Source: a virus | DNA length: 20,325 nucleotides | Virus record (IMG/VR): IMGVR_UViG_3300032238_000568 | Location: 1-20,325 of that record | Reading direction: 5' to 3' (one strand) | Shown: positions 71 to 20,325 of the stretch, piece by piece | How positions within the stretch are numbered: position 1 is the stretch's first letter | Layout: each line of letters opens with the position of its first letter | Program-made: the position numbers and the translations under genes | The notes under the pieces: model-generated | The model's input: the letters and a program-made list of their open reading frames with translations, nothing else | Told to the model about the DNA's origin: nothing | Databases searched by the model: none

Positions 71-775
71 ATGAAATTTGGACAATTACTTAGCAAAATA
101 GAAGGATTAATGATTAATTCTTATGTGAATGAAACTACAAAATTGGAGTTAAGAAACTTCAAAAAATTGGTGTTGGAAAATAAAAACGCCAGTACAATGT
201 TTTATATTTATACTGAATTATCCAAGAAAAATGGTTATGATAAAACTTTAGCTGAGGCTTACATCAACGAATCTTTAAGACAAGTAGAAAAACTTCTACC
301 AAAATTAAATACACAAAAAATTGAATATTGGGTTAAAGATGTTGTAAGTGAAAATAACTACAAAGATATTGACAATTTAATTTACAACTCTTCTGATAAA
401 ATTATGGAGAATGTTGAAAGTAGAAAAACTCTTATAAAAAATTTAAGTGAGACTACTGAAGTTAAAACTGCAATACAATTACCAATGGAAACTTTGATGA
501 ATATTGCCAATAGAGAAATTAGTTCTTATATTGAAAATTTAGATGAAGATTCTAAAAGGGATTTATCTAAAGTATTAATGACTGAAGATGTGGAATTGTC
601 AAAAGAGTTTGAAGATTTAAAAGTAAAAACAATTCACTCTTTAAGTAATATCAATGAATCTATGGATGATATTACAATAAAAAAATTACAGGAAACTATT
701 AACCAAATCAAAGGTGAAGAGTTTTCTAAAATCAATTATGTAAAATTATACAATTTGTATAATAATATTAATTAA
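71..775 (+). CDS. Unknown 234-aa helical protein at the start of the head module
   Basis: I do not recognise this family. The protein is charged, predicted mostly helical, and has no Cys, membrane segment or signal peptide. The N-terminus (MKFGQLLSKIEGLMINSY) is an amphipathic helix, somewhat like the short targeting helices of T4 internal head proteins, but no clear L/I-x-E protease site follows it. In T4 the small prohead core genes 67 and 68 sit between portal and protease, so a prohead core or internal protein is a reasonable guess from position only. The ATG is preceded by TATTTAT only 4 bases upstream and there is no Shine-Dalgarno sequence. A later in-frame ATG at about position 110 is an alternative start. 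The stop codon shares the tetranucleotide TTAA with the stop of the convergent bS21 gene. Confidence 0.7.
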   Translation: MKFGQLLSKIEGLMINSYVNETTKLELRNFKKLVLENKNASTMFYIYTELSKKNGYDKTLAEAYINESLRQVEKLLPKLNTQKIEYWVKDVVSENNYKDIDNLIYNSSDKIMENVESRKTLIKNLSETTEVKTAIQLPMETLMNIANREISSYIENLDEDSKRDLSKVLMTEDVELSKEFEDLKVKTIHSLSNINESMDDITIKKLQETINQIKGEEFSKINYVKLYNLYNNIN

Positions 776-960
776 TCTTTAGGTTTTTGAGATTCAACGT
801 ATTGAGCCTTTAATTTTTGTGCTCTACGTGTAACAGATGGTTTTTCATACTGAAGTCTTTCTCTTAACTTTTCATTTTGCTTGGTTTTAATTACCTTTCC
901 TTTTAATTGTTTTAAGGCTTTTTCTAAAGGAGTTTTTGCGTCTATTTTTACTTTTAACAT
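772..960 (-). CDS. rpsU: Ribosomal protein bS21 homologue, phage-encoded
   Basis: This 62-aa basic protein matches small-subunit ribosomal protein bS21 across its length. Visible family features are a short beta-like start (LKVKIDAKTP), a helix with A15 L16 K17, the R33-x-R35 pair, the YEKPS segment (38-42) and the R45 R46 A47 block. The Bacteroidota-type K51-A52-x-Y54 ending is present. In Bacteroidota ribosomes bS21 Tyr54 contacts the 3' end of 16S rRNA and helps hide the anti-Shine-Dalgarno sequence; the phage copy has Tyr at position 54. I place the start at 960, not at the in-frame ATG at 1008, because the extra 16 hydrophobic residues have no counterpart in bS21. It is encoded against the head operon and overlaps the stop of the previous gene by 4 bases. 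Phage-encoded bS21 is known from metagenomic phages; a role in steering translation is inference. Confidence 0.88.
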   Translation of the reverse strand: MLKVKIDAKTPLEKALKQLKGKVIKTKQNEKLRERLQYEKPSVTRRAQKLKAQYVESQKPKD

Positions 961-976
961 ATTATAGTAAATAATA

Positions 977-1009
977 CAAAGTTGGTAAAAATTTGACAAT
1001 AGAAACAAA
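977..1009 (-). promoter_or_regulatory. Possible host-type promoter for bS21
   Basis: On the minus strand TTTG (1006-1009) is followed after 21 bases by CAACTTTG (977-984). The Bacteroidota consensus is a -33 TTG/TTTG and a -7 TAnnTTTG with 17-23 bases between; the -7 box here has one mismatch in its first base. The box ends 16 bases before the ATG at 960, which fits a short leader. A TATTTAC, one mismatch from the late box, also lies 6 bases from the start, so the assignment is uncertain. Confidence 0.28.
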
Positions 1010-1058: not shown

Positions 1059-1505
1059 ATGAAAAAAGGAAAAACATCACGAATTGTAGGATTCAACAAT
1101 TCAAAAGTGAGTTATGGAACAGTTGATTCCAAAAATTTTAAATCAGTCTATCTTAATCTACAGAGTTGGGTTTCACCAAAACAAAGTTATGACAATTGGG
1201 AAAGAATAGTATCAAATTTTGGTAGACAGATAAAACATACAATATTTGAAATATTAGACCCAACATTTTTTAAAGACAATTATATCGTTGATTTGGATTT
1301 AAGAACCAGCGGAATTGTTTATGGTAAGAAAAGTTTTATGAATTTGGAAATTACCCTATTTTTATCACAAGAAGTTGATTTCAAAGATACAATTCTTAAA
1401 GATAAATTGAAAAGAATTGCCAAAGAAATTTATATTGAAAACTTTAAAAAGAACGAGTATTTTGATTTTACACTATCTAAAAAGAGCAAAGAAGAAGCAT
1501 CTTAG
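1059..1505 (+). CDS. Unknown 148-aa protein of the head module
   Basis: I do not recognise this family. The protein has a basic N-terminus (MKKGKTSRIVGF), a central mixed segment with W38 and W47 (LNLQSWVSPKQSYDNWERIV), alternating hydrophobic stretches that look like beta strands (NYIVDLDLRTSGIVYGKKSFMNLEITLFL), and a lysine- and glutamate-rich helical tail. There is no signal peptide or membrane helix. It sits between bS21 and the prohead protease, 22 bases before the protease start, so it is probably a late head-region gene. The ATG at 1059 has no Shine-Dalgarno; an ATG at 1049 is in another frame and closes early. Confidence 0.72.
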   Translation: MKKGKTSRIVGFNNSKVSYGTVDSKNFKSVYLNLQSWVSPKQSYDNWERIVSNFGRQIKHTIFEILDPTFFKDNYIVDLDLRTSGIVYGKKSFMNLEITLFLSQEVDFKDTILKDKLKRIAKEIYIENFKKNEYFDFTLSKKSKEEAS

Positions 1506-1527: not shown

Positions 1528-2259
1528 ATGAAAATATTAGGACCTACCGAAACAGGTAAAGGAATATTGATTGAAATGGATGCCGGATATGTGTCACCAT
1601 CTCATGAATTTAATAAAAAGATGCTTGAGGAAAATCACAAGAATTTCTTGGATTATTCAAAACCTTTTGAATTCTATGCTGTACTTCAAAAATACAATAC
1701 ACCAAACCGTAATGGGAGAGTGTACCCTGAAAGAATTTTAAAACGTGAATCTGAAAATTATAAAAAGATGATTGAAAAAGGAACATCTCTTTCAGAATTA
1801 AATCACCCTGAATCATCATTAATTGACCTTGACCGTGTGTCTCACATCATTAATGATATATGGTGGGACGGACATATCCTTATGGGTAAGTTGCGTCTTC
1901 TAACATCACCAGGATTCCATGAGAGAGGTATTGTATCTACAAAGGGTGACCAAGCAGCAAACTTGTTAAGACAAGGTGTTACTTTGGGTATATCTTCACG
2001 TGGTGTTGGTTCTTTAAAAAAGACTGGTGAACAGAATGAAGTACAAGATGATTTTGAATTAATTTGTTTTGATTTGGTATCTTCACCATCTACACCAGGA
2101 GCGTATTTGTTTACAAACCCTGATGATAGAAGCAAGTTTGAAGAAAATTTGGAAGAAGAAAAAGTTTCAAGAATGTCACCAATAGAACAACAAAGTGGAA
2201 CAAAAATGAATCGCTCTATTGACTTATTGAAAAAATTAAACCATTATTTGGACAGATAA
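1528..2259 (+). CDS. 21: Prohead core maturation protease, T4 gp21-like
   Basis: This 243-aa protein is a serine protease of the herpesvirus-assemblin/T4 gp21 fold that processes the capsid and core proteins inside the prohead. Family motifs are clear: NRNGRVYP (60-67), the histidine motif LNHPE (91-95, H93), RVSH (103-106), G-to-TSP turn (127-128), and the nucleophile motif LGISSRGVG (153-161, S156/S157). The acidic motif FDLVSSPS (181-188, D182) follows. These correspond to the His-Ser catalytic pair and the conserved PS segment of the family. The length is close to T4 gp21 (about 212 aa) with a longer C-terminal tail rich in Glu. It lies before the DUF4494-like gene, core protein and capsid protein, the standard T4 order. 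No residue of the active site appears to be missing. Predicted targets are L/I-x-E sites in the capsid and core proteins. Confidence 0.92.
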   Translation: MKILGPTETGKGILIEMDAGYVSPSHEFNKKMLEENHKNFLDYSKPFEFYAVLQKYNTPNRNGRVYPERILKRESENYKKMIEKGTSLSELNHPESSLIDLDRVSHIINDIWWDGHILMGKLRLLTSPGFHERGIVSTKGDQAANLLRQGVTLGISSRGVGSLKKTGEQNEVQDDFELICFDLVSSPSTPGAYLFTNPDDRSKFEENLEEEKVSRMSPIEQQSGTKMNRSIDLLKKLNHYLDR

Positions 2260-2594: not shown

Positions 2595-4214
2595 ATGACA
2601 GAAAAAAAGTCGTTAGTTGAGGAAGCACTACTACAAATGAAAAATTTGGAACAAGTAGTCGCCGAAAATGCAAAAGGAATACTTGCTTCTACAATGAAGG
2701 AAGAAATCTCAGAATTAGTAAAAGAGTCTTTGAAAAACGAGACTGAAAAAGAATCAAAAGAAGTTGAAATGGATGAACAATCGGAAGATGATTTAAACAT
2801 GGATATTGATATGGATTCTGAAGATGAAAACATAGATGATGTTGAAATGGACATTGATATGGATTCTGACGATGATGAATCGGAAGATGATGAATCGGAA
2901 GATGAATTTGACATGGACTTTGATATGGATTCTGAAGATACACTACCAATTGACCTTACAAATGCGTCTGATGATGAAATCTTAAAGGTTTTTAAATCTA
3001 TGAGCGATGAAGATGGTATCATTGTTAAACAAGATGGTAACAACATTACTTTAAATGATGAGGATGAAGATGTAGAATACATTATTCAAACCGAAAGTTA
3101 CATGGACGAAGAAATGTACGAAGAACAAATGGACGAAGAACAAATGGACGAAGAACAAATGGACGAAGAACAAATGGACGAAGCTGAATTATCTAACGAT
3201 GAATTAAATTCTATAATCGCTGACATTTTTGGTAAAGAACAAATGGACGAAGAACAAATGGACGAATCTTGGGAAGAACAAATGGACGAAGAACAAATGG
3301 ACGAAGTGGTGTATGAAATAGAAATGGAAGAAGATGATGATAACGTGTCTGAAAGTAAAATGACAATTAAACCAGTTATGGGTAAATTAACTAAATCCTC
3401 TTTAACTAACAAAGCTAAAAAAATGGAAACTAAAGAAGGGTCAATGATGAGTAAACCTGTAGTAGGTAAAGGTGTTAAAACTGGAAGTGCTAAATTTGAA
3501 TATAAAGAAGGTAGAAAAATGGAAACCAAAGAAGCAGCTATTGAACCAAAAGGTAAAGCTAAAGGAGTTGGTATGAATTTGAAACCTAAGAAGTTTGAAT
3601 ACACTGAAGCTGAAATGGAAGAAAACTATGGTTCTAAAAAACACGAATACAAACGTAAGGATGTTGATGGTGTTGAAAAGAAAGCTGGCGAAAAAGGTGG
3701 TCATTACAAAGATTACGAAAAAGAGGAAACTAAAGAAGCTGCTAGAACATTAGGTAATGGAACTAGAAATTACGCTGAAAGAAAAGGTTTACCTAAAATG
3801 AAAGTAATTCCAAATCAAGCTCTTGCTGAAGAAGTTGAAAGATTGAGAGAGAAAAATGAAGAATACAGAAAAGCACTTAATATTTTCAGAGAAAAATTAA
3901 ATGAAGTTGCTGTGTTTAATTCAAACTTGGCTTATGCAACAAGATTGTTCACTGAACATACAACAACAAAACAAGAGAAGATTAATATCTTAAGAAGATT
4001 TGATGATGTTGAATCATTAAAAGAATCAAAATCATTGTATTCATCAATTAAAAATGAATTAAATACAACGACTCAAAACGTAGTTACAGAATCTATGGAA
4101 AAAATTGGTAAATCACCAGCATCAGGTTCTTCACAAAACTTAATTGAGTCAAAAACTTATGAAAATCCACAATTCTTAAGAATGAAGGATATCATGCAAA
4201 AAATACAAAAATAA
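2595..4214 (+). CDS. 22: Acidic prohead core/scaffold protein, T4 gp22-like
   Basis: This 539-aa protein lies between protease and capsid gene, the position of the T4 gp22 scaffold core. Residues 1-55 are helical. Residues about 55-175 are very rich in Asp and Glu, with repeated MDxDMDSED segments. Residues 176-195 and 214-237 hold the pentapeptide E-E-Q-M-D repeated. Residues about 255-400 form a lysine-rich region with recurring KPxxGK and KKMETKE motifs. Residues about 404-490 form a long helical domain (EEVERLREKNEEYRKAL, then KLNEVAVFNSNLAYATRLF) of the kind found at the C-terminus of gp22-type core proteins. It is about twice the length of T4 gp22 (269 aa); the low-complexity acidic part accounts for the difference. 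Scaffold proteins of this type are degraded by the prohead protease; LVE near residue 8 is a possible L-x-E site. The assignment rests on position, acidity and the C-terminal helix. Confidence 0.82.
   Translation: MTEKKSLVEEALLQMKNLEQVVAENAKGILASTMKEEISELVKESLKNETEKESKEVEMDEQSEDDLNMDIDMDSEDENIDDVEMDIDMDSDDDESEDDESEDEFDMDFDMDSEDTLPIDLTNASDDEILKVFKSMSDEDGIIVKQDGNNITLNDEDEDVEYIIQTESYMDEEMYEEQMDEEQMDEEQMDEEQMDEAELSNDELNSIIADIFGKEQMDEEQMDESWEEQMDEEQMDEVVYEIEMEEDDDNVSESKMTIKPVMGKLTKSSLTNKAKKMETKEGSMMSKPVVGKGVKTGSAKFEYKEGRKMETKEAAIEPKGKAKGVGMNLKPKKFEYTEAEMEENYGSKKHEYKRKDVDGVEKKAGEKGGHYKDYEKEETKEAARTLGNGTRNYAERKGLPKMKVIPNQALAEEVERLREKNEEYRKALNIFREKLNEVAVFNSNLAYATRLFTEHTTTKQEKINILRRFDDVESLKESKSLYSSIKNELNTTTQNVVTESMEKIGKSPASGSSQNLIESKTYENPQFLRMKDIMQKIQK
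3121..3303 (+). repeat. 15-bp repeats encoding E-E-Q-M-D
   Basis: The unit AAGAACAAATGGACG occurs eight times without a mismatch: four in tandem at 3121-3180, two at 3235-3264 and two at 3274-3303. The phase is constant in the reading frame and encodes E-E-Q-M-D. Synonymous sites are identical in every copy, so the array has expanded recently or been kept uniform by slippage or recombination. Copy number probably differs between related phages. Confidence 0.95.
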
Positions 4215-4250: not shown

Positions 4251-6107
4251 ATGGGTGCATTATTAGAAAGCGGTCTTGTTGGTAACATTGGTTTAAAACA
4301 CCTTAAGGTTATCAAAGAAGACACAATCAACAAATGGGATAAACTTGGCTTTTTGGAAGGTTTAAAAGGTCACATGAAAGAAAACGTAGCTCAGTTATAC
4401 GAAAACCAAGCTTCTTTCTTAATCAATGAGGCTTCTTCAACTTCTGATAGCGGTTCTTTTGAAACAGTTGTTTTCCCAATCGTGAGAAGAGTATTCTCTA
4501 AATTATTAGCTAACGACATCGTGTCTGTACAAGCAATGAACTTACCAATCGGTAAATTGTTCTACTTTGTACCTAAAATTCAAGGTTATTCTGGTGGTAC
4601 ATCAACAGATGGTTTATTTGGAAATAGTGGTACACACTACGCTCCAATAGGTTCTCCAGGAAACTACCAAGGTAATCCTGACGCTGGTTATACTTCAGGT
4701 ACAGGTGACTTCAACCCTATTTACAATAAGGATTTATATGACTTATTCTACGAAGGTAACGAAGCTGGATTAAATCCTCCTGGTTTGTTTGACTATTCAA
4801 AAGGTCAGTGGACTGCAGTAACTGCTGGTACCGTAACTTATGCTTGGTCTAACGCTGGTTATTTATTACCACAAGCTTATCCATTAGATAACTACAGAAA
4901 AGTAATTATTGTTATGAGTGGTTTCTCTAACGCTGGTGCTGGTCAGTTAATTGGTCCTAATGGTAACACTATGGATACTGAAGAATTCTTATCAGGTTTA
5001 AACATTTTGGGTGTTTCTAGTAACGTATATACTTCAGCTAACACAACTAACCCTTACTTATTTAGAGTTGTTACTCAAAGATATGGTAAAGGTATTGTAC
5101 AATACGGAAGTAATGTAACAGTTAACTACCCTAATGGTCCTGCAGGTTACAATGCTAACTCAGGTGGTTCATATTACAACGTATGTGACCAAAACGGTTT
5201 CATTTTCTTAGAAGTTGATTTACAAACACCAGTTTGTATTACTTGTGGTGATTCGTCTATGGATGGTTACACAGGTTCTACATTCTCATCAGCAACAGGT
5301 AATAACAACGCATTCTTGGCTGTTTATAGATTGTATAAAGAGTTGGAATTTGAAGACCAAATTGGTGAAGTTTCTTTTGACCTTGAGTCAGTAACAGTTT
5401 CTGTTACAGAAAGAAAATTGAGAGCACAATGGTCTCCTGAATTAGCTCAAGACGTTGCGGCATTCCACAACATTGACGCTGAGGCTGAATTAACAGCATT
5501 GTTATCTGAGCAAGTTGCAGCAGAAATTGATAGAGAAATCTTGAGAGATTTGAGAAAAGGTGCAGCTTGGAACTTGAGATGGGATTACAACGGTTGGAAG
5601 AGACTATCTTCTAGCGGAACAACTCCTTACACTCAAAAAGATTGGAACCAAACTTTGATTACTGCAATTAACCAATTGTCAGCTCAAATTCACAAATCAA
5701 CTTTAAGAGGTGGTGCTAACTGGATAGTTGTATCTTCTGAAGTATCTGCAATCTTTGATGACTTGGAATACTTCCACGTTTCAAACGCAGCTCCTGAGCA
5801 AGACCAATACAACATGGGTATTGAAAGAATAGGTACTTTGTCTGGTAGATATCAAGTATATCGTGACCCTTACTTCCCAGCTAACCAAGTGTTAATCGGA
5901 CACAAAGGAACTAGCTTGTTGGATACTGGTTACATTTACGCTCCATACGTACCTTTACAGTTGACTCCAACTATGTATAACCCATTCAACTTTACACCTA
6001 TTAAGGGTATCATGACAAGATACGCTAAGAAAATGGTTAACAACCGTTTCTATGGTAGAGTTACAGTTGACGGAGTTAGAACATTCAACTTACAAGAATT
6101 GAGATAA
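4251..6107 (+). CDS. 23: Major capsid protein, T4 gp23-like
   Basis: This 618-aa protein is the HK97-fold shell protein of a T4-like head. The N-terminus (1-60) is the removable delta domain; FLINE followed by A61 gives a consensus I-x-E site for the prohead protease after E60. Residues 61-110 match the family start (SFETVVFPIVRR, then VQAMNLPIGKLFYF). The diagnostic core lies at 381-430: VTVSVTERKLRAQWSPELAQ, DVAAFHNIDAEAELT and AAEIDREIL, equal to the KsRaLkAeYt-ELAQDL-xAEtEL-EINRE series of gp23. Residues about 112-355 are a Gly, Ser, Thr and Asn-rich insertion of beta character, larger than in T4 gp23 (521 aa). The leader is almost pure A/T with no ribosome binding site. Codon choice is more regular than in its neighbours, as expected for a highly expressed gene. 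It follows the core gene by 36 bases and is followed by a strong terminator. Confidence 0.96.
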   Translation: MGALLESGLVGNIGLKHLKVIKEDTINKWDKLGFLEGLKGHMKENVAQLYENQASFLINEASSTSDSGSFETVVFPIVRRVFSKLLANDIVSVQAMNLPIGKLFYFVPKIQGYSGGTSTDGLFGNSGTHYAPIGSPGNYQGNPDAGYTSGTGDFNPIYNKDLYDLFYEGNEAGLNPPGLFDYSKGQWTAVTAGTVTYAWSNAGYLLPQAYPLDNYRKVIIVMSGFSNAGAGQLIGPNGNTMDTEEFLSGLNILGVSSNVYTSANTTNPYLFRVVTQRYGKGIVQYGSNVTVNYPNGPAGYNANSGGSYYNVCDQNGFIFLEVDLQTPVCITCGDSSMDGYTGSTFSSATGNNNAFLAVYRLYKELEFEDQIGEVSFDLESVTVSVTERKLRAQWSPELAQDVAAFHNIDAEAELTALLSEQVAAEIDREILRDLRKGAAWNLRWDYNGWKRLSSSGTTPYTQKDWNQTLITAINQLSAQIHKSTLRGGANWIVVSSEVSAIFDDLEYFHVSNAAPEQDQYNMGIERIGTLSGRYQVYRDPYFPANQVLIGHKGTSLLDTGYIYAPYVPLQLTPTMYNPFNFTPIKGIMTRYAKKMVNNRFYGRVTVDGVRTFNLQELR

Positions 6108-13819: not shown

Positions 13820-14188
13820 TTATTTTAATTTGTATGGTTTATCATTAATATTTTCAATATCTTTTGATATTAATGATTGTAACATTTCATCATCAATATC
13901 GCCTAAAGATAGGTCATCTTCAACCTTATTTGATTTTTCCCATATGGTTGATTGTAGTTTTGCCAAAGTTAATTTCTTTTCAACCACATCATTAATTATT
14001 TTTTGTTGTTTTTCTAAAACAGGACCAATTACAGTCATATCCTCAGGGTCTTTTAGCATTGCTAACATTTTATTTTGAACCCTAATTGCCGTAGACCTTT
14101 GTTCTACAAGCTCATTATAAATTTCTTGTAATAATGAAAGAACGGAATCTTTATTTAACGCTATTTCCTTTTTTTTTGGTCTTGACAT
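13820..14188 (-). CDS. Unknown 122-aa coiled-coil protein leading the baseplate operon
   Basis: The protein begins with a basic tract (SRPKKKEIALNK) and continues as two long helices (VLSLLQEIYNELVEQRSTAI, then EKQQKIINDVVEKKLTLAKL), ending in an acidic tail (VEDDLSLGDIDDEMLQSLI). I do not recognise a family. It is the first gene after the sigma factor and starts the run of baseplate genes, with a 6-base gap to the 653-aa gene. A basic start plus coiled coil could suit a scaffold, a tail chaperone or a small terminase-like protein; nothing in the sequence decides. A TATTTAT box lies 4 bases before the ATG. Confidence 0.66.
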   Translation of the reverse strand: MSRPKKKEIALNKDSVLSLLQEIYNELVEQRSTAIRVQNKMLAMLKDPEDMTVIGPVLEKQQKIINDVVEKKLTLAKLQSTIWEKSNKVEDDLSLGDIDDEMLQSLISKDIENINDKPYKLK

Positions 14189-14192
14189 ACAG

Positions 14193-14199
14193 ATAAATA
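14193..14199 (-). promoter_or_regulatory. Candidate late promoter box before the baseplate operon
   Basis: On the minus strand AATATTTATCTGT holds TATTTAT 4 bases before the ATG at 14188, in the 27-base gap after the sigma gene. As with the gene at 71, the short spacing implies a leaderless transcript if the box is a -10 element. Confidence 0.3.
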
Positions 14200-14215: not shown

Positions 14216-14953
14216 TTATTCTATCATGTGATTTAGAACTACATAATATAACTTTTTAAAACGTTTCATTGCCGTTCTAATTTCTTTTGTAGAAAGATTT
14301 GTCATTTCACGAATTGATAATAAAATAATATTTTTATTAAATTTATTATTATCCGTTCCTAAAAAAATAGTCTTATAATTTTCAAATAATTCAAGTAATG
14401 CAATACCAAGTTTTCTTTCATTATCAGTTAAAGATTCGTTATCAACATAGTCTTTAAGTTCATTTAAAAATTGTTGGATTACGTCATCGGCTTCAGTTTT
14501 TTCTAATTCCATATAATAAACCATATCAGGTCTTTGTTCTAAACTGAATGAAATATCTTCGTATGAAATTTTTCTATTTGTATCTTTTTGGTCTTTTATA
14601 ATTTGACCCATTAAATAATTTTTACAAATAGTACCAAAATAAGAATATGCCTTCTTTTCTTTTGAAGGTTTAAATTTATCAACCTTAGTCATTAAAAAAG
14701 AATGCGTATCAGTATGAATATCCGTAAAATTCATATCTTTACGATATAATTTATATCTACGGATGATTGATGAAATCATCTTATCTAAAGGTCCTCTTAA
14801 AAACTCATTGTAAATTGCATTTTTTTCTTCAAAAGTTTCTGCGGTAAGATATCTCCTTACCGCAGCTTCTTCAGCAACATCAAAATAATTTACAGTAGTA
14901 GCTTTTCTACCTCTTTTCTTAACTGAATCTGAGGTTGTTTCGGCAGATAACAT
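14216..14953 (-). CDS. 55: gp55-like late sigma factor
   Basis: The 245-aa protein resembles T4-type late RNA polymerase sigma factors, which replace the host sigma so that the polymerase reads late promoters. Residues about 30-70 hold a helical segment (NAIYNEFLRGPLDKMISSII). Residues 94-120 (FKPSKEKKAYSYFGTICKNY, LMGQIIK) correspond to sigma region 2, where the F-x-P-x-K, A-Y-x-Y-F and helix signature is typical. Residues about 212-236 (LSIREMTNLSTKEIRTAMKR) look like a helix-turn-helix similar to sigma region 4. T4 gp55 (185 aa) lacks that region and relies on gp33. The N-terminus has a basic KKRGRK tract. It is the last gene of the glycosyltransferase/PhoH operon, starting in a TAATG overlap, and has no late box of its own, as expected for a middle gene that switches on the late ones. 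Confidence 0.78.
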   Translation of the reverse strand: MLSAETTSDSVKKRGRKATTVNYFDVAEEAAVRRYLTAETFEEKNAIYNEFLRGPLDKMISSIIRRYKLYRKDMNFTDIHTDTHSFLMTKVDKFKPSKEKKAYSYFGTICKNYLMGQIIKDQKDTNRKISYEDISFSLEQRPDMVYYMELEKTEADDVIQQFLNELKDYVDNESLTDNERKLGIALLELFENYKTIFLGTDNNKFNKNIILLSIREMTNLSTKEIRTAMKRFKKLYYVVLNHMIE

Positions 14954-15759
14954 TAAGCATTTTGAACTTCATACTTTATATTTCTGTCGTCTTTAAAGAA
15001 GTATTCTTTTTTTGCGGTAGAAATCCAAAATTTTACTTCGTTTTCAGTCATTACGTCATCACCATTTTTGTAGTTCCAAAATATTGAACCTTCTCTCATA
15101 CTTGTGTGTTTGTAACCAAGTTTTGGTATTGTCATAATTCTTAATGAATTATATGTCATACGAAGTAGGAATTCATAAACAAATGTTAATTTAACTGATG
15201 ATTTAAAACATCCAAATTCATCAATTTTTGATTTTCTAATTGCCATACCAGCAGTTTGAAAATTTTGATAATCTAACAAAGTTTCATTGTTCAAATATCC
15301 CATTTCTTGGGTAAAATTTGCTGCAAATGTTGCTTCATTTGTAAAACCTGCAAAAGTATCTTTACTATCAACGTCAACGACAATTGGTAAAAACGCATCT
15401 ACATCAGGATAAATTTCACTATACTTTAAAATATTTTGAAACCAAATGTTAGCGTACTCGTCATCAAATTCAAAAAAAGAAATCCATTCACTTGAAGAAT
15501 TTTCAACACCAAGTGATATTTGACTTTGATAGTTAGGTGTACCTGTATGTTCTACAAGTTTAACATTTAATGTTCCAAAATCAAAAGATTGTAATTTATG
15601 GACTAATGATTCTTCATTTGTATGAACAATAATTAATTCATTACAAGGAACATTTTGTATTTGTAATGATTTAATTGCCTTTTCAAAATATTCATCAAAA
15701 TCTCTAACAATTGATGATTTAATTGGTAATATTACGGATAAATCTAATTTCTTTTCCAT
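14953..15759 (-). CDS. Glycosyltransferase family 2-like protein
   Basis: The 268-aa protein starts with the GT-A signature LDLSVILPIK (5-14) and continues with the nucleotide-sugar half: an AIKSLQIQ helix and LIIVHTNEE strand. The metal site motif appears as SFFEFDDEY (94-102), where D99-D100 replace the usual D-x-D. The rest (about 130-230) has the aromatic-rich acceptor half found in phage GT2-like proteins, ending in a basic tail. It would transfer a sugar from a nucleotide donor; donor and acceptor are not deducible. It overlaps the sigma gene by 1 base (TAATG) and follows a second glycosyltransferase by 2 bases, so the two are probably used together. Possible acceptors are virion proteins such as the Thr/Pro-rich protein, phage DNA or host surface polysaccharide. 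Confidence 0.8.
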   Translation of the reverse strand: MEKKLDLSVILPIKSSIVRDFDEYFEKAIKSLQIQNVPCNELIIVHTNEESLVHKLQSFDFGTLNVKLVEHTGTPNYQSQISLGVENSSSEWISFFEFDDEYANIWFQNILKYSEIYPDVDAFLPIVVDVDSKDTFAGFTNEATFAANFTQEMGYLNNETLLDYQNFQTAGMAIRKSKIDEFGCFKSSVKLTFVYEFLLRMTYNSLRIMTIPKLGYKHTSMREGSIFWNYKNGDDVMTENEVKFWISTAKKEYFFKDDRNIKYEVQNA

Positions 15760-15761
15760 GA

Positions 15762-16814
15762 TTATACAGTTTCGGTTTGAATTTGTGCTTCAAAAGCTTC
15801 TTTACGTTTAGTGATAAATGATGTGAAGATTCCCATAACATCAGTATCAAATTTTTCTTTATTTGTGTATTTTTCTGCGGTTTTTTCACCTTCAGTATAT
15901 AAGTCAACAAGGATGTTATCTTCTAACCAAGTTTGTGCAACATCAGCTATTACATCAACAAGTTGTAGAGGGTTTTCTACCCATACACCATTTTTTTCTG
16001 TAATCCAATCAGATACCATATAAGGTGTTTTTCCAACAACAGGAATACCTGTTTTCATACATTCTAATGGAAAGGTACCAAATGAAGATGTTGGGTCAAT
16101 CCAAACACCCAAGAAACATTCTTGTAAAGCATTTGCAAAATCATCTTGTGATAATCCACGTAAATCTTTAAATGTGAAGAATCTATATTGTGGGTATTTG
16201 ATGTAAAATTGTTTAATAACATTTAATCCTTCTCGTTGTTCTCTTGCAAGAACACCAATCATTGGTTTTGGAGGGTAAGCTTGTTTTTTAAACGACTTTG
16301 AAATTACAGGTTCAACAATATCAATTGAAATGTTTTTCATTACTTTATTGATATATTCTTTTTGAGCCTCAGATGTTGTAATACATTTGTAAAACCCATA
16401 TTGTTGCCAAGTTGCACCAGGATTTAAAGTTTCCAAAATGTGGTCATATGCCTGACATAAAACAATTTTTCCACATGGTAAGTTTTTTACTTGTTCCATA
16501 ATAAACCCAAAAATTTCTGATATAACCAAAACATCTTCAGGGGCAACAGCTAAATTTGTTCCTTCTAAAGTTTGGTGTTGGATTTCATCATATGGTCCTG
16601 ATAACCAAGAAGTTACCGGTGTGTATTCTTTTTTCTCATAAAGCATTACAACATTGTGACCATTATTTTTAAGTGTTAATGCCATTTCATAAATGTATCT
16701 AATAGATGCTTTGGCGTTCCCTCTTGTATCTTGAACAAAGAAGTAAATTTTGTTTAATTTTTCGTCAATATTCTTTATTGACCCTTTGACTTTTTCAATC
16801 ATTTCGTTTTCCAT
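15762..16814 (-). CDS. GT4-type glycosyltransferase
   Basis: The 350-aa protein has two Rossmann halves as in GT-B enzymes. The N-terminal half has KIYFFVQDTRGNAKASIRYI (22-41) and a helix NGHNVVMLYEKKEY. The C-terminal half holds the donor-binding motif TSSFGTFPLECMKTGIPVVG (242-261) followed by NGVWVENP, the usual pattern of GT4 enzymes in which an E-x7-E-type segment binds the nucleotide sugar; here E251 is the first acidic residue. No membrane segment is visible. It lies between the GT2-like gene (2-base gap) and an unknown 91-aa gene (8-base gap) and is co-transcribed with them. The sugar is unknown. Confidence 0.82.
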   Translation of the reverse strand: MENEMIEKVKGSIKNIDEKLNKIYFFVQDTRGNAKASIRYIYEMALTLKNNGHNVVMLYEKKEYTPVTSWLSGPYDEIQHQTLEGTNLAVAPEDVLVISEIFGFIMEQVKNLPCGKIVLCQAYDHILETLNPGATWQQYGFYKCITTSEAQKEYINKVMKNISIDIVEPVISKSFKKQAYPPKPMIGVLAREQREGLNVIKQFYIKYPQYRFFTFKDLRGLSQDDFANALQECFLGVWIDPTSSFGTFPLECMKTGIPVVGKTPYMVSDWITEKNGVWVENPLQLVDVIADVAQTWLEDNILVDLYTEGEKTAEKYTNKEKFDTDVMGIFTSFITKRKEAFEAQIQTETV

Positions 16815-16822
16815 ATCCGTAC

Positions 16823-17098
16823 TTAAAATTTTTCAATTAATTTATTCATTAACATTGTGTTCCACGCCAATTTAAAAGGTATTGTAAGTTGTGACGATAC
16901 TTTATTTGCGAGTTTTTCATCAATGTCTTCATTTTCACTTAAAATCACATCAATAAGTGTTTTAACCATTTCGTATTTTACAATAGAAATATGTTGTTCG
17001 GGTTCTGTTGATGCCGATATTGGGGGAGTTTGAATATTAACATATTTGTCAATATTATCTAAATTTATGTAGTAGTTTTCACCAAATAATGTAATCAT
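16823..17098 (-). CDS. Unknown 91-aa protein
   Basis: I do not recognise this family. The N-terminal segment FGENYYINLDNIDKYVNI is strand-like with aromatic residues; a Pro/Ser linker follows (PPISASTEPEQ), and then an all-helical C-terminus (VKYEMVKTLIDVILS, NKVSSQLTIPFKLAWNTMLM). It overlaps the HAD-like gene by 4 bases (ATGA) and precedes the GT4 gene by 8 bases, so it belongs to the same operon. No motif points to an enzyme. Confidence 0.68.
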   Translation of the reverse strand: MITLFGENYYINLDNIDKYVNIQTPPISASTEPEQHISIVKYEMVKTLIDVILSENEDIDEKLANKVSSQLTIPFKLAWNTMLMNKLIEKF

Positions 17099-17688
17099 TT
17101 TTCTATTAAAATTTCAATTTTTTTATCTAATCCTTTTAAATCTGAAATGGTAATATCAGACTCTATTTTTAAATTATAAGAAGTTTCGTACTTAATTAAA
17201 GTTTTATTATCTTTTTGTAATAATAAATCAGGATTTGCTGTAATTAAAACATCAAATTCATTCCAAACCTCATTTTTTGTTAATTGATTATAAAATACAA
17301 TCTTTTCAATTTCACATCCAAATTTTGAAACAAAAAACAATGTTGCCGGTTTTGTTTTACTAACTTGTTTTGAAATTAATAAAAATTTTACATTATCTTT
17401 GTATTTTACAATTAAATCGTTTAAATCATAAAATGTTGACATTTCGGTTGATGGTGAATGTCCAAATATTTCCATAGCAAACTCTTCATACATAAATGAC
17501 AAATATTCTTCATCAGTTTTAAATTTAAAATGGTTTGAATATTCTGGAGTATCATACGGTGTAATGATTTCATATTTAAAATCATCATCAACAAGTTCTA
17601 ACTCATCAATAAAATACTTTTGATAGATTTGTTCTATTTTTGTAAATGTATCTCGTAATACACCATCAATATCTATTGCAATTCTCAT
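17095..17688 (-). CDS. HAD-superfamily hydrolase-like protein
   Basis: The 197-aa protein starts with HAD motif I, IAIDIDGVLRDT (3-14), where D6 would be the nucleophile and D8 the acid/base. Motif II is probably LLISKQ (103-108, S106), and K113 is a candidate motif III lysine. Motif IV would be FDVLITANPDLL (145-156): D146 is present but the usual second Asp (DD) is replaced by Thr-Ala, so metal binding may be altered. The size and cap-sized insertion (about 15-85) resemble phage 5'-nucleotidases and deoxyribonucleotidases. A nucleotide phosphatase or phage-specific HAD function is likely; the substrate is not deducible. It overlaps PhoH and the 91-aa gene by 4 bases each. Confidence 0.75.
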   Translation of the reverse strand: MRIAIDIDGVLRDTFTKIEQIYQKYFIDELELVDDDFKYEIITPYDTPEYSNHFKFKTDEEYLSFMYEEFAMEIFGHSPSTEMSTFYDLNDLIVKYKDNVKFLLISKQVSKTKPATLFFVSKFGCEIEKIVFYNQLTKNEVWNEFDVLITANPDLLLQKDNKTLIKYETSYNLKIESDITISDLKGLDKKIEILIEK

Positions 17689-18437
17689 TCTTCGTATTTA
17701 CTTAGAATTTGTGAAATTAATGGGTTTCTAACAATATCTTTATCATTAAATTCAAAAACACCAATATCATTAACATTTTTAAACTTTTCAATTACGTCCC
17801 ATAACCCAGATTGTGTTTTGTCTTTATATCTATCAGTTTGTTCTAAATCTCCTGAAATGAAAAATTTACTTTTAAAACCAATTCTAGTTAATAAGAGTTT
17901 CATTTGTTTTGGTGTACTATTTTGAGCTTCTTCAAAAATTAAAATTGAATTGTCAATGTTCATACCTCTCATATATGCCAAAGCAAAAACCTCAATAGCT
18001 TCAATATTTTTCAAATATTCTCTTTTATCTTTACCTATAATTTTATTTAATAGATAGTAAGATGGAAAAATATACGGGTCTAATTTTTCTTCAACATTAC
18101 CTGGCAATGCTCCAAGTTTTTCCTCAGCTTCAACTGCAGGTCTAACAATAATAATTTTTTCATACGGTGTTGTTGGGTCTGCAAGTAAATCTACCGCCGC
18201 TTTCATTGCAATATAACTTTTACCAACACCAGCAGGTCCTGAACATATTATTATTTGATTTTTTTGTAATAAATCATAATACAATCTTTGATTTTCAGTT
18301 AAAAATTTTTCTTTTGTTGGTTTTGAAATTACAGAAGCAATAATTTCTTTTTTTGATTTAGGTGTGGTTCTAGTTTCTCCACTAAAAACTGTTGTTTTAG
18401 TGGTAACACTTGGTTTTTTTCTTGGTTTTTTTTCCAT
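17685..18437 (-). CDS. phoH: PhoH-like P-loop ATPase
   Basis: The 250-aa protein is a clear PhoH-family ATPase, very common in marine and freshwater phages. A basic 45-residue N-terminal extension (KPRKKPSVTTKTTVF) is followed by N-Q-R, Walker A GPAGVGKS (67-74), the motif VRPAVEAEEKLGALPG (98-113), Walker B ILIFEEAQN (165-173), SGDLEQTD (195-202) and an arginine at 237 in RNPL. Walker B reads FEEAQN where most homologues read DEAQN, so the Mg-coordinating Asp is Glu at 169; the catalytic Glu at 170 is kept. PhoH proteins are RNA-binding ATPases or helicase-like, sometimes linked to phosphate stress; the role in phage infection is unsettled. It starts a 4-base-overlap series with the HAD gene and lies 37 bases after the dehydrogenase-like gene. 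Confidence 0.92.
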   Translation of the reverse strand: MEKKPRKKPSVTTKTTVFSGETRTTPKSKKEIIASVISKPTKEKFLTENQRLYYDLLQKNQIIICSGPAGVGKSYIAMKAAVDLLADPTTPYEKIIIVRPAVEAEEKLGALPGNVEEKLDPYIFPSYYLLNKIIGKDKREYLKNIEAIEVFALAYMRGMNIDNSILIFEEAQNSTPKQMKLLLTRIGFKSKFFISGDLEQTDRYKDKTQSGLWDVIEKFKNVNDIGVFEFNDKDIVRNPLISQILSKYEE

Positions 18438-18474
18438 TACTTATAATTTATGAAATATAATAATAAAAGAAACA

Positions 18475-19533
18475 TTAAAAATTAATGTACACTCCTTTGG
18501 GCGATGTGCCTTCTTTAAAGAACTTTACTTTTTCACCAAAGTCAAACACTAATTCTTTAACAACTTTTACATTTTTAATAAACTCATCACTTTCAATAAT
18601 AAAAACAGTATAACCTTCTTTTAATAACCCATACACTAATTCAAGTTTAGAAGATTCTTTAATACTAATTGAATTATCTTTATACCCAATACCAGATATT
18701 ACAAATGGTTGTGATTTATCAGGATTGGTTTTTATAAAATGACTTTTTATGAACTCATTATGATTAATGTTAAAATCGTCATTAACAAATGGTAATACAA
18801 AATCTAATTTATTACCATTGGCAACTTGACCAAAAACTCTATTTTCTGTTGGAATCCAAGGTCCACCAACACCAAATCCAAAATTAAAATTTTCTTTAGA
18901 AATTGATTTATCGTATCCTAAACTTTTAAGAAGTAATTTTGTTTCATCTGATGTACCAAAATTTAACATTAATTCACCTAAAAAATTGGCAAAATTTATT
19001 TTATAATAGATGTAAGAACTATACGCCAATCTATATATTTCAGCGGATTTACTTGTCATAGATACTACATTTATTTTTTTGTCTTGGGGTGGTTGAAATA
19101 TGTCTGAGATAGTGTTAACTATGTGTGAATCAATTGTACCAATTACTATAGTTTCTAATGATAATGTATTATCTGAATCAATAATTAAAGGTAGATAACA
19201 AACACTTAAATTCATAGGGTTTAATATTTCAGATATTTGTTTTGTATCACCAGGATTTAAAGTAGAACAAATTGCAAAAATTTTATTATATAATGGTACT
19301 TCATCTTCAAATGAAACACCAAAATCCTCAACTACATTCATCACATTTTTTATATCCAAAAAATTTGATGGTAAAATATTTGTATCTACACAACAAAAAA
19401 TAACATCAGAGTTTTTAATAACCTCAATATTATCACCGTCAATATCTGAAACATAAATTTCATGTTCCTGTTCAGATAAAAAATTTAATAAATTTAGACC
19501 TAAATTACCTATACCAATAATTCCAACTTTCAT
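18475..19533 (-). CDS. Degenerate UDP-glucose/GDP-mannose dehydrogenase homologue
   Basis: The 352-aa protein has the layout of UDP-sugar 6-dehydrogenases. An NAD-binding Rossmann start GIIGIGNLGLN (4-14) is followed by DIDGDNIEVI (30-39) and STLNPGDT (90-97). The central helix AEIYRLAYSSYIYYKINFAN (164-183) equals the AE-x-x-KLAxN-x-x-x-A-x-x-I-x-F-x-N segment, and a C-terminal second Rossmann-like half with GIGYKDNS (281-288) follows. Key residues are lost: the catalytic Cys loop, normally GGSCFPKD, reads GGPWIPTE (223-230), with Trp at 226 in place of Cys and Glu at 230 in place of Asp. The active-site Lys is Arg168 and the Asn is Ser172. Such a protein cannot perform the usual two-step oxidation through a thiohemiacetal; it may bind a nucleotide sugar, do a different reaction, or be regulatory. 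The frame is intact, so it is not a decaying gene. It overlaps the epimerase gene by 1 base (TAATG). Confidence 0.82.
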   Translation of the reverse strand: MKVGIIGIGNLGLNLLNFLSEQEHEIYVSDIDGDNIEVIKNSDVIFCCVDTNILPSNFLDIKNVMNVVEDFGVSFEDEVPLYNKIFAICSTLNPGDTKQISEILNPMNLSVCYLPLIIDSDNTLSLETIVIGTIDSHIVNTISDIFQPPQDKKINVVSMTSKSAEIYRLAYSSYIYYKINFANFLGELMLNFGTSDETKLLLKSLGYDKSISKENFNFGFGVGGPWIPTENRVFGQVANGNKLDFVLPFVNDDFNINHNEFIKSHFIKTNPDKSQPFVISGIGYKDNSISIKESSKLELVYGLLKEGYTVFIIESDEFIKNVKVVKELVFDFGEKVKFFKEGTSPKGVYINF

Positions 19534-20325
19534 TAACCAAATATTTTTTTAACATACTCATTCGTTGAAACCCAGTTTGATAGTCTATTCAAACCTTCAT
19601 TAATTGATATTTTTGGTTCCCAACCAATATGGTTTTTAATTTTGGAAATATCACTAACGTATATCATTTGGTCTCCTGGTCTCCAATTAGAATATTCAAA
19701 ATTTAAATGGTCGTTAAATTTTAACTCCAAGAAATTAATTAATTCTAATAATGATAATGTATTATTTGGTCCACCCCCAACATTATAAACTTCCCCACTA
19801 CATGTATCAATATTTTTAATAACAAGTTCATACAAGTCAATTAAATCTTTAATGTAGAGAATATCTCTTACTTGTTTACCGTTACCATATATATAGAATT
19901 TTTTCTTTAAATGTGATGCGATTGTAAACCAAGCAACCCAACCTTGGTCTTCAATACCAAATTGATTTTCACCATAGATACAAGATTGTCTCAACACAAC
20001 CGTTTTAAGTCCGTAAATTCTATTATAATCTCTAACATATTGGTCCGCAGAACCTTTTGAACAACCATACGGTGAGTGAAAATCCATTGTCATTTTTTCA
20101 GAAACACCAACAAGATTATCGTATTTGTATCTTAATTCATCTTCAGATAATTCTGTTTCATACTCACCATACACTTTATTTGTTGATGAGAATAACAAAA
20201 TTGTATCTTTTGAATGCAATCTTAAACTTTCCAAAATGTTAAAGGTTCCAACAGAATTAATTTCAAAATCTTCTCTTGGGTTTGTAACTGAAAATGTTAC
20301 GGCAACTTGACCAGCCAAATGTAAA
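19533..20325 (-). CDS. CDP-paratose 2-epimerase-like SDR enzyme (partial)
   Basis: The open frame runs off the right edge, so about 75 N-terminal residues including the G-x-x-G-x-x-G NAD site are outside the window. The visible part reads H-L-A-G-Q-V-A-V-T at the edge, then NPREDFEINSVGTFNILE and SSTNKVYG. The catalytic Y-x-x-x-K motif is SPYGCSKGSADQYV, followed by RQSCIYGENQFGIEDQGWVA and a C-terminal NWRPGDQ motif. These blocks match extended short-chain dehydrogenases of the CDP-paratose/tyvelose 2-epimerase type very well; related UDP-glucose epimerases and dehydratases are less close. The first in-window candidate start is a TTG, which is an internal leucine rather than a true start. 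With the dehydrogenase-like gene it forms a sugar-nucleotide pair feeding the two glycosyltransferases downstream. Confidence 0.85.
   Translation of the reverse strand, partial: LHLAGQVAVTFSVTNPREDFEINSVGTFNILESLRLHSKDTILLFSSTNKVYGEYETELSEDELRYKYDNLVGVSEKMTMDFHSPYGCSKGSADQYVRDYNRIYGLKTVVLRQSCIYGENQFGIEDQGWVAWFTIASHLKKKFYIYGNGKQVRDILYIKDLIDLYELVIKNIDTCSGEVYNVGGGPNNTLSLLELINFLELKFNDHLNFEYSNWRPGDQMIYVSDISKIKNHIGWEPKISINEGLNRLSNWVSTNEYVKKIFG

Follow-up and report, generated by a model that had tools for sequence, protein, structure and literature searches.

bS21 is the ribosomal protein that phages carry most often, and which mRNAs a phage-encoded bS21 selects is an open question. The window analyzed here, a 20,325-nucleotide stretch of phage DNA (IMG/VR record IMGVR_UViG_3300032238_000568), carries such a gene and yields leads that address this question. 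A preliminary description, made from the letters alone, proposed that the protein keeps a tyrosine with which Bacteroidota bS21 helps to hide the anti-Shine-Dalgarno (anti-SD), and that it can replace host bS21 and bias translation towards leaderless or A-rich phage mRNAs. The reading that we favor, with moderate confidence, is that a clade of T4-like jumbo phages has retained a bS21 of Bacteroidota origin, and that this protein is most likely made late and occupies the place of bS21 on the host 30S subunit. Descent within Bacteroidia, an aromatic residue 54, the segment KVIKTKQ, absence of a Shine-Dalgarno (SD) sequence, placement next to the protease gene and the late transcription reported in an earlier study are all in keeping with this reading.

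The bS21 gene, its relatives and its neighbors

The open reading frame at 772-960 (minus strand; ATG at 958-960, stop at 772-774) translates into a 62-aa protein, MLKVKIDAKTPLEKALKQLKGKVIKTKQNEKLRERLQYEKPSVTRRAQKLKAQYVESQKPKD. This protein passed the cut-off of the Pfam family Ribosomal_S21 (PF01165; 37.8 bits, cut-off 27), and its top PDB chain was the Flavobacterium johnsoniae bS21 (7jil_z, E 4e-6), with which it aligned without gaps and with Tyr54 opposite Tyr54. The tyrosine (codon 799..801, minus strand) sits within RRAQKLKAQY, corresponding to R45-R46-A47-Q48-x-x-K51-A52-x-Y54, and the bS21 homologue with this pattern noted in the preliminary description was confirmed by translation, Pfam score and alignment to 7jil_z. 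The list of open reading frames also has a longer reading from a TTG at 1008, but the ATG at 960 fits the N-terminus of relatives. The AlphaFold2 single-chain model (mean pLDDT 85) contained two helices, residues 12-37 and residues 41-58, the latter including Tyr54, and a Foldseek search with this model returned ribosome chains only, none of them significant, as expected for a model consisting of two helices. Proteins 95-100% identical to that of the window were observed in dozens of IMG/VR contigs, and the gene is therefore no assembly accident.

More than 500 bS21 relatives were found in IMG/VR, and scans with different queries gave 160 clade loci, 21 loci of a distant group and 80 loci of proteobacterial type (L330-L409). 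A class-wide search around a Bacteroidetes MAG detected bS21 in 187 of 198 genomes, and about 130 rpsU loci from this search served as the host comparison set. In a tree of 81 rows and 65 columns the proteobacterial types separated at 100/100, while the Bacteroidota-type phage proteins, minus the outlier L309, formed one branch (100/96) nested in Bacteroidia. The closest sampled host, the F. johnsoniae-like G195, joined the phage branch weakly (91/26), and the inner forks are poorly resolved because the alignment has 65 columns. This nesting backs the Bacteroidota affiliation and the host proposed at the outset, and a placement outside Bacteroidota bS21, which the preliminary description had named as the outcome that would speak against it, is excluded by the tree. 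The only close cellular relative in the genome scan (L082) was considered as a misbinned phage, an idea we dropped as its neighbors look ordinary bacterial. The closest large relative of the window, G199 (295 kb; loci L214-L228), encodes a bS21 98% identical to that of the window.

The surrounding DNA holds a T4-type head module with a gp21 protease and a gp23 capsid protein, and a PhoH gene on the other strand. The bS21 gene lies between two conserved hypothetical genes, both on the plus strand: a convergent 234-aa gene (71..775), whose stop overlaps the bS21 stop and which had a homologue in 156 of the 160 clade loci, and a divergent 148-aa gene (1059..1505), with homologues in 156 of 160 clade loci and 20 of 21 distant-group loci. 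One of these two neighbors is probably the bS21_CN of Chen et al. Further along the plus strand are the gp21-type prohead protease (1528..2259; PF03420, 84 bits), beside which bS21 was located in 148 of the 160 clade loci, an acidic repetitive 539-aa protein (2595..4214; no family match), a probable scaffold judging by nothing but its position between the protease and capsid genes, and the gp23-type major capsid protein (4251..6107; PF07068, 247 bits). On the minus strand at 14953-20324, genes for a GT2, a GT1-like protein, a UDP-glucose dehydrogenase-like protein and a GDP-mannose dehydratase/epimerase-like protein adjoin the PhoH gene; these sugar-nucleotide and glycosyltransferase genes fit the polysaccharide genes reported for bS21 jumbo phages.

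The 47 Bacteroidetes phage genomes of Chen et al. 2022 (PMC9723584), up to 331 kb in size, carry a reverse-strand bS21 that lies between two hypothetical genes near protease, portal and capsid genes and is transcribed late, alongside structural genes. The authors proposed that the phage protein is substituted into host ribosomes late in infection, and cite the entry of a Pelagibacter phage bS21 into E. coli ribosomes. Since the window has this layout and the point about residue 54 is reported in that paper, the central claim was already in print in 2022.

Residue 54 and the segment before it

According to McNutt et al. 2023 (PMC9976891), Tyr54 of F. johnsoniae bS21 stacks on A1534 of the 16S rRNA, and the anti-SD opens and strong-SD mRNAs are favored when bS21 carries Y54A or is lost; Y54A had little effect on growth. 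Chen et al., who mapped phage bS21 on 7JIL, found residue 54 to be aromatic in all of their proteins, divergence at residues 21, 23, 25 and 28, and the N-terminal part located where mRNA would bind (PMC9723584). Among our 52 distinct clade proteins, residue 54 was Tyr in 45 and His in seven, and Tyr was observed in all eight distinct proteins of the distant group, making the residue aromatic in 60 of 60 distinct Bacteroidota-type phage proteins and in none of 37 of proteobacterial type. Distinct proteins of Bacteroidia hosts had Tyr in 113 of 124 cases (91%) and His in three. Residues 22-28 (codons 877..897, minus strand) read KVIKTKQ in the column counts of all 52 clade proteins, where the host consensus is KFEKTGV, and a near-KVIKTKQ segment was present in seven of the eight distant proteins. 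The phages thus retain the residue that holds the 3' tail and have a rewritten segment ahead of it, in agreement with the map of Chen et al.

Because Tyr54 and its helix are kept, the phage protein should still be able to hold the 16S 3' tail off the mRNA. The shielding role given to Tyr54 in the preliminary description is supported insofar as the residue that stacks on A1534 is retained; the replacement of host bS21 is a step that we infer. With Tyr54 also present in 91% of hosts, its conservation in the phages may be plain inheritance. Mere inheritance of Tyr54 would likewise suit a protein acting off the ribosome, as an RNA-binding regulator or packaged in the virion, a packaging raised as a possibility by Chen and colleagues (PMC9723584) and matched by the location of the gene in the head module. 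We regard such a role as highly improbable, however, as both bS21 helices and the aromatic residue are conserved over 60 divergent proteins.

Another account is supply only, in which the phage raises the amount of bS21 with a protein equivalent in function, for example when the host protein is lost or limiting late, and mRNA choice is unchanged. It would explain the host-like character of Tyr54 and of most of helix 2, and synthesis from a gene without an SD would be free of host feedback. It sits less well with residues 22-28, which were rewritten and then frozen as KVIKTKQ across clade proteins otherwise 57-76% identical; this freezing over divergent proteins suggests a distinct function for the segment, and we hold supply alone to be possible but on the unlikely side. 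In the favored reading of a late-made bS21 on the host 30S, the phage protein would fill bS21-poor host ribosomes and, with its Tyr54, would keep the anti-SD shut, and the rewritten segment (21-28) may alter the mRNA path in favor of phage mRNAs that lack an SD, some of which are apparently leaderless.

Shine-Dalgarno sequences, promoter boxes and leaderless-type starts

The rpsU gene of F. johnsoniae is autoregulated through its extended SD (PMC9976891). We measured SD strength as the duplex energy between the last 30 nt upstream and the 16S tail, with the threshold used by McNutt et al. for an extended SD (below -13 kcal/mol). No SD was found in the 73 phage bS21 upstream regions (64 clade and nine distant; best -6.4, none below -9 kcal/mol), and the value for the window, +0.8 kcal/mol, lies outside the range of an extended SD such as that of the autoregulated rpsU. 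An extended SD was observed for 18 of 128 host rpsU genes, and SD-like upstream regions were common for proteobacterial-type phage bS21 (median -7.9 kcal/mol). Most sampled Bacteroidia rpsU genes are also without a strong SD, so that its absence is no phage peculiarity. Lacking an extended SD, the phage gene should escape the rpsU autoregulation loop of many Flavobacteriales, an escape relevant only to hosts with a strong-SD rpsU since most sampled hosts are without one. Were phage bS21 to occupy ribosomes lacking bS21 and close their anti-SD, expression of an SD-driven host rpsU would be expected to drop. One exception was the 735-kb uncultured phage LR756501, in which a Tyr54 bS21 follows a strong SD (AAAGGAGGATAAATG), like host rpsU (L476 near 42927, record position 542927). 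SD-led expression was rejected for the phage genes of G199, where only eight of 338 genes were SD-like.

A putative late-type promoter box, TATTTACT (966..973, minus strand), precedes the ATG of bS21, with its end 5 nt away. It departs from the phage consensus at one letter, and the distance from box to transcription start is assumed for the phage box. Among 52 clade bS21 upstream regions, strict TATTTA was located at 4-5 nt in 20, with a TATTTN variant there in many others. A host-type -7 box was not preferred as the main bS21 promoter, being found in a minority of relatives (13-16 nt upstream) and imperfect in the window, and T4's own TATAAATA, in sense orientation, was not position-locked. 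A second element, GTCAAATTTTT (987..997, minus strand), is conserved ahead of nearly every clade bS21 gene; this GTCAAAnTTTT element lies at a variable distance from the AT box, at times between box and ATG (L002-L081, L229-L308), and may be an operator, a portion of a divergent promoter or an RNA element. GTCAAA was rejected as a general phage promoter element, occurring upstream of just one other gene in the 295-kb relative. The window also encodes a probable T4 gp55-like late sigma factor of 245 aa (14216..14953, minus strand; E 0.0011 to PHROG 234, annotated as 'late sigma transcription factor'), which could read the late-type box. Orthologues of this candidate, 72-94% identical, were observed in other bS21 phages; it was present in seven of nine contigs of the clade and in one contig of the distant bS21 phages, and in none of the bS21-less contigs searched.

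The transcription start of F. johnsoniae genes lies 4-5 nt past the -7 box, and leaders exceed 10 nt in 87% of transcripts (Baez et al. 2019, PMC6847099); Zheng et al. 2011 (PMC3160421) took a TA-like signal about 10-12 bp upstream to mark leaderless genes. Starts were classed as leaderless-type when a box lay 3-5 nt before the start codon (Baez 2019; Zheng 2011). Within the window this spacing was observed for bS21 (5 nt), its 234-aa neighbor (TATTTATT, 3 nt ahead of the ATG) and a 122-aa gene (13820-14188, minus strand; TATTTATC at 14192..14199, 3 nt before the ATG). The protease and probable scaffold genes are not leaderless-type, and the capsid-module genes have boxes 14-22 nt upstream, giving apparent short leaders. 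In G199, 76 of 338 genes had TATTTATW upstream, where shuffles predicted 11.7, and in 36 of these the octamer ended 3-5 nt ahead of the ATG; independently, the host-type -7 box TAnnTTTG was positioned exactly 4 nt before the ATG in 20. Position-locked boxes (phage TATTTAWW, host-type TAHHTTTG) 3-5 nt before starts were thus seen in G199 (L214-L228), and likewise in other bS21 phage contigs (L410-L418 and L433-L472).

Across nine bS21 contigs the late-type box was found at 3-5 nt for 134 of 1259 starts, versus 13 of 922 in five bS21-less phage sets, and the host box at 4-5 nt for 47 of 1259 versus one of 922 (Fisher p 3e-20 and 2e-10, respectively, values that are merely indicative because genes and phages are not independent). 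For genes of at least 120 aa, the share of leaderless-type starts was 10.7-24.6% across seven contigs with bS21, 1.9-2.4% across four without it and 0.5% in one host genome. Mis-called starts as a source of this signal are countered by internal in-frame ATGs, which had a box in 0-0.9% of cases in all sets, and chance by the shuffles in G199 (47 seen, 2.1 expected). The distant bS21 phages and LR756501 gave no clear pattern, on little sequence. Judged by spacing, these boxes seem to predict many leaderless mRNAs in bS21 phages.

Phage bS21 might then specifically favor the leaderless mRNAs of the phage. The excess of leaderless-type starts in bS21 contigs would fit, as would host-type -7 boxes at exactly the 4 nt known as a transcription start distance in F. 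johnsoniae. However, the bS21 phages are one clade and the association counts once, box positions in the window suggest short leaders for its capsid-module genes, and neither the distant bS21 phages nor LR756501 clearly share the pattern. No bS21 was found in ten large immuto-like contigs, two control genomes included, and no bS21-less relative closer than the Immutovirus-type phages was found, so that the association has no proper phylogenetic control. Our literature search found no paper tying phage bS21 to leaderless mRNA, and we consider a specific preference doubtful. A broader version, in which the phage runs a partly leaderless program for which bS21 (Tyr54, KVIKTKQ) re-tunes the ribosomes while silencing an SD-dependent host rpsU, we likewise judge unlikely; the silencing would come about as phage bS21 occupies those bS21-free ribosomes on which rpsU would be translated. 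The favored reading, of a late-made bS21 in the host 30S, has its weakest step in the presumed link from bS21 to leaderless mRNA. Of the original proposal, leaderless phage mRNAs gain indirect genomic support from box spacing, and the bS21-driven translational bias stays conjectural.

Comparison with known systems

Two observations go beyond published work and give direct tests, namely the SD-less phage bS21 gene and the leaderless-type starts. Neither is reported in the available parts of Chen et al. 2022 (PMC9723584), and the portions of McNutt et al. 2023 at hand (PMC9976891) contain no statement on the SD absence of phage bS21. In the tractable host F. johnsoniae, phage bS21 is predicted to repress the SD-driven rpsU while being itself outside that control. 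The leaderless-type promoter boxes may also offer a handle on expression classes in uncultivated bS21 phages.

Proteobacterial-type bS21 is also phage-borne but has no aromatic residue 54, forms a separate branch (100/100) and commonly follows SD-like upstream sequences. Immutovirus (Flavobacterium phage immuto) and its relatives share the T4-like head module, a related protease and capsid protein and a Flavobacterium host; they differ in having few leaderless-type starts and no bS21 in the ten related contigs. The bS21 jumbo phages of Chen et al. (clades a-e) match the window in the strand of bS21, in the two hypothetical genes that flank it, in the nearby genes for protease and capsid protein and in having an aromatic residue 54, and also in a GC content of about 32%, many tRNAs and the ~295 kb genome of the closest large relative. 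No difference in kind was found from these phages, with TerL lying outside the window. The F. johnsoniae bS21 (7jil) is of the same fold family, aligns without gaps and shares Tyr54, but has KFDKTGT where the phage protein has KVIKTKQ, and the phage gene is without the extended SD.
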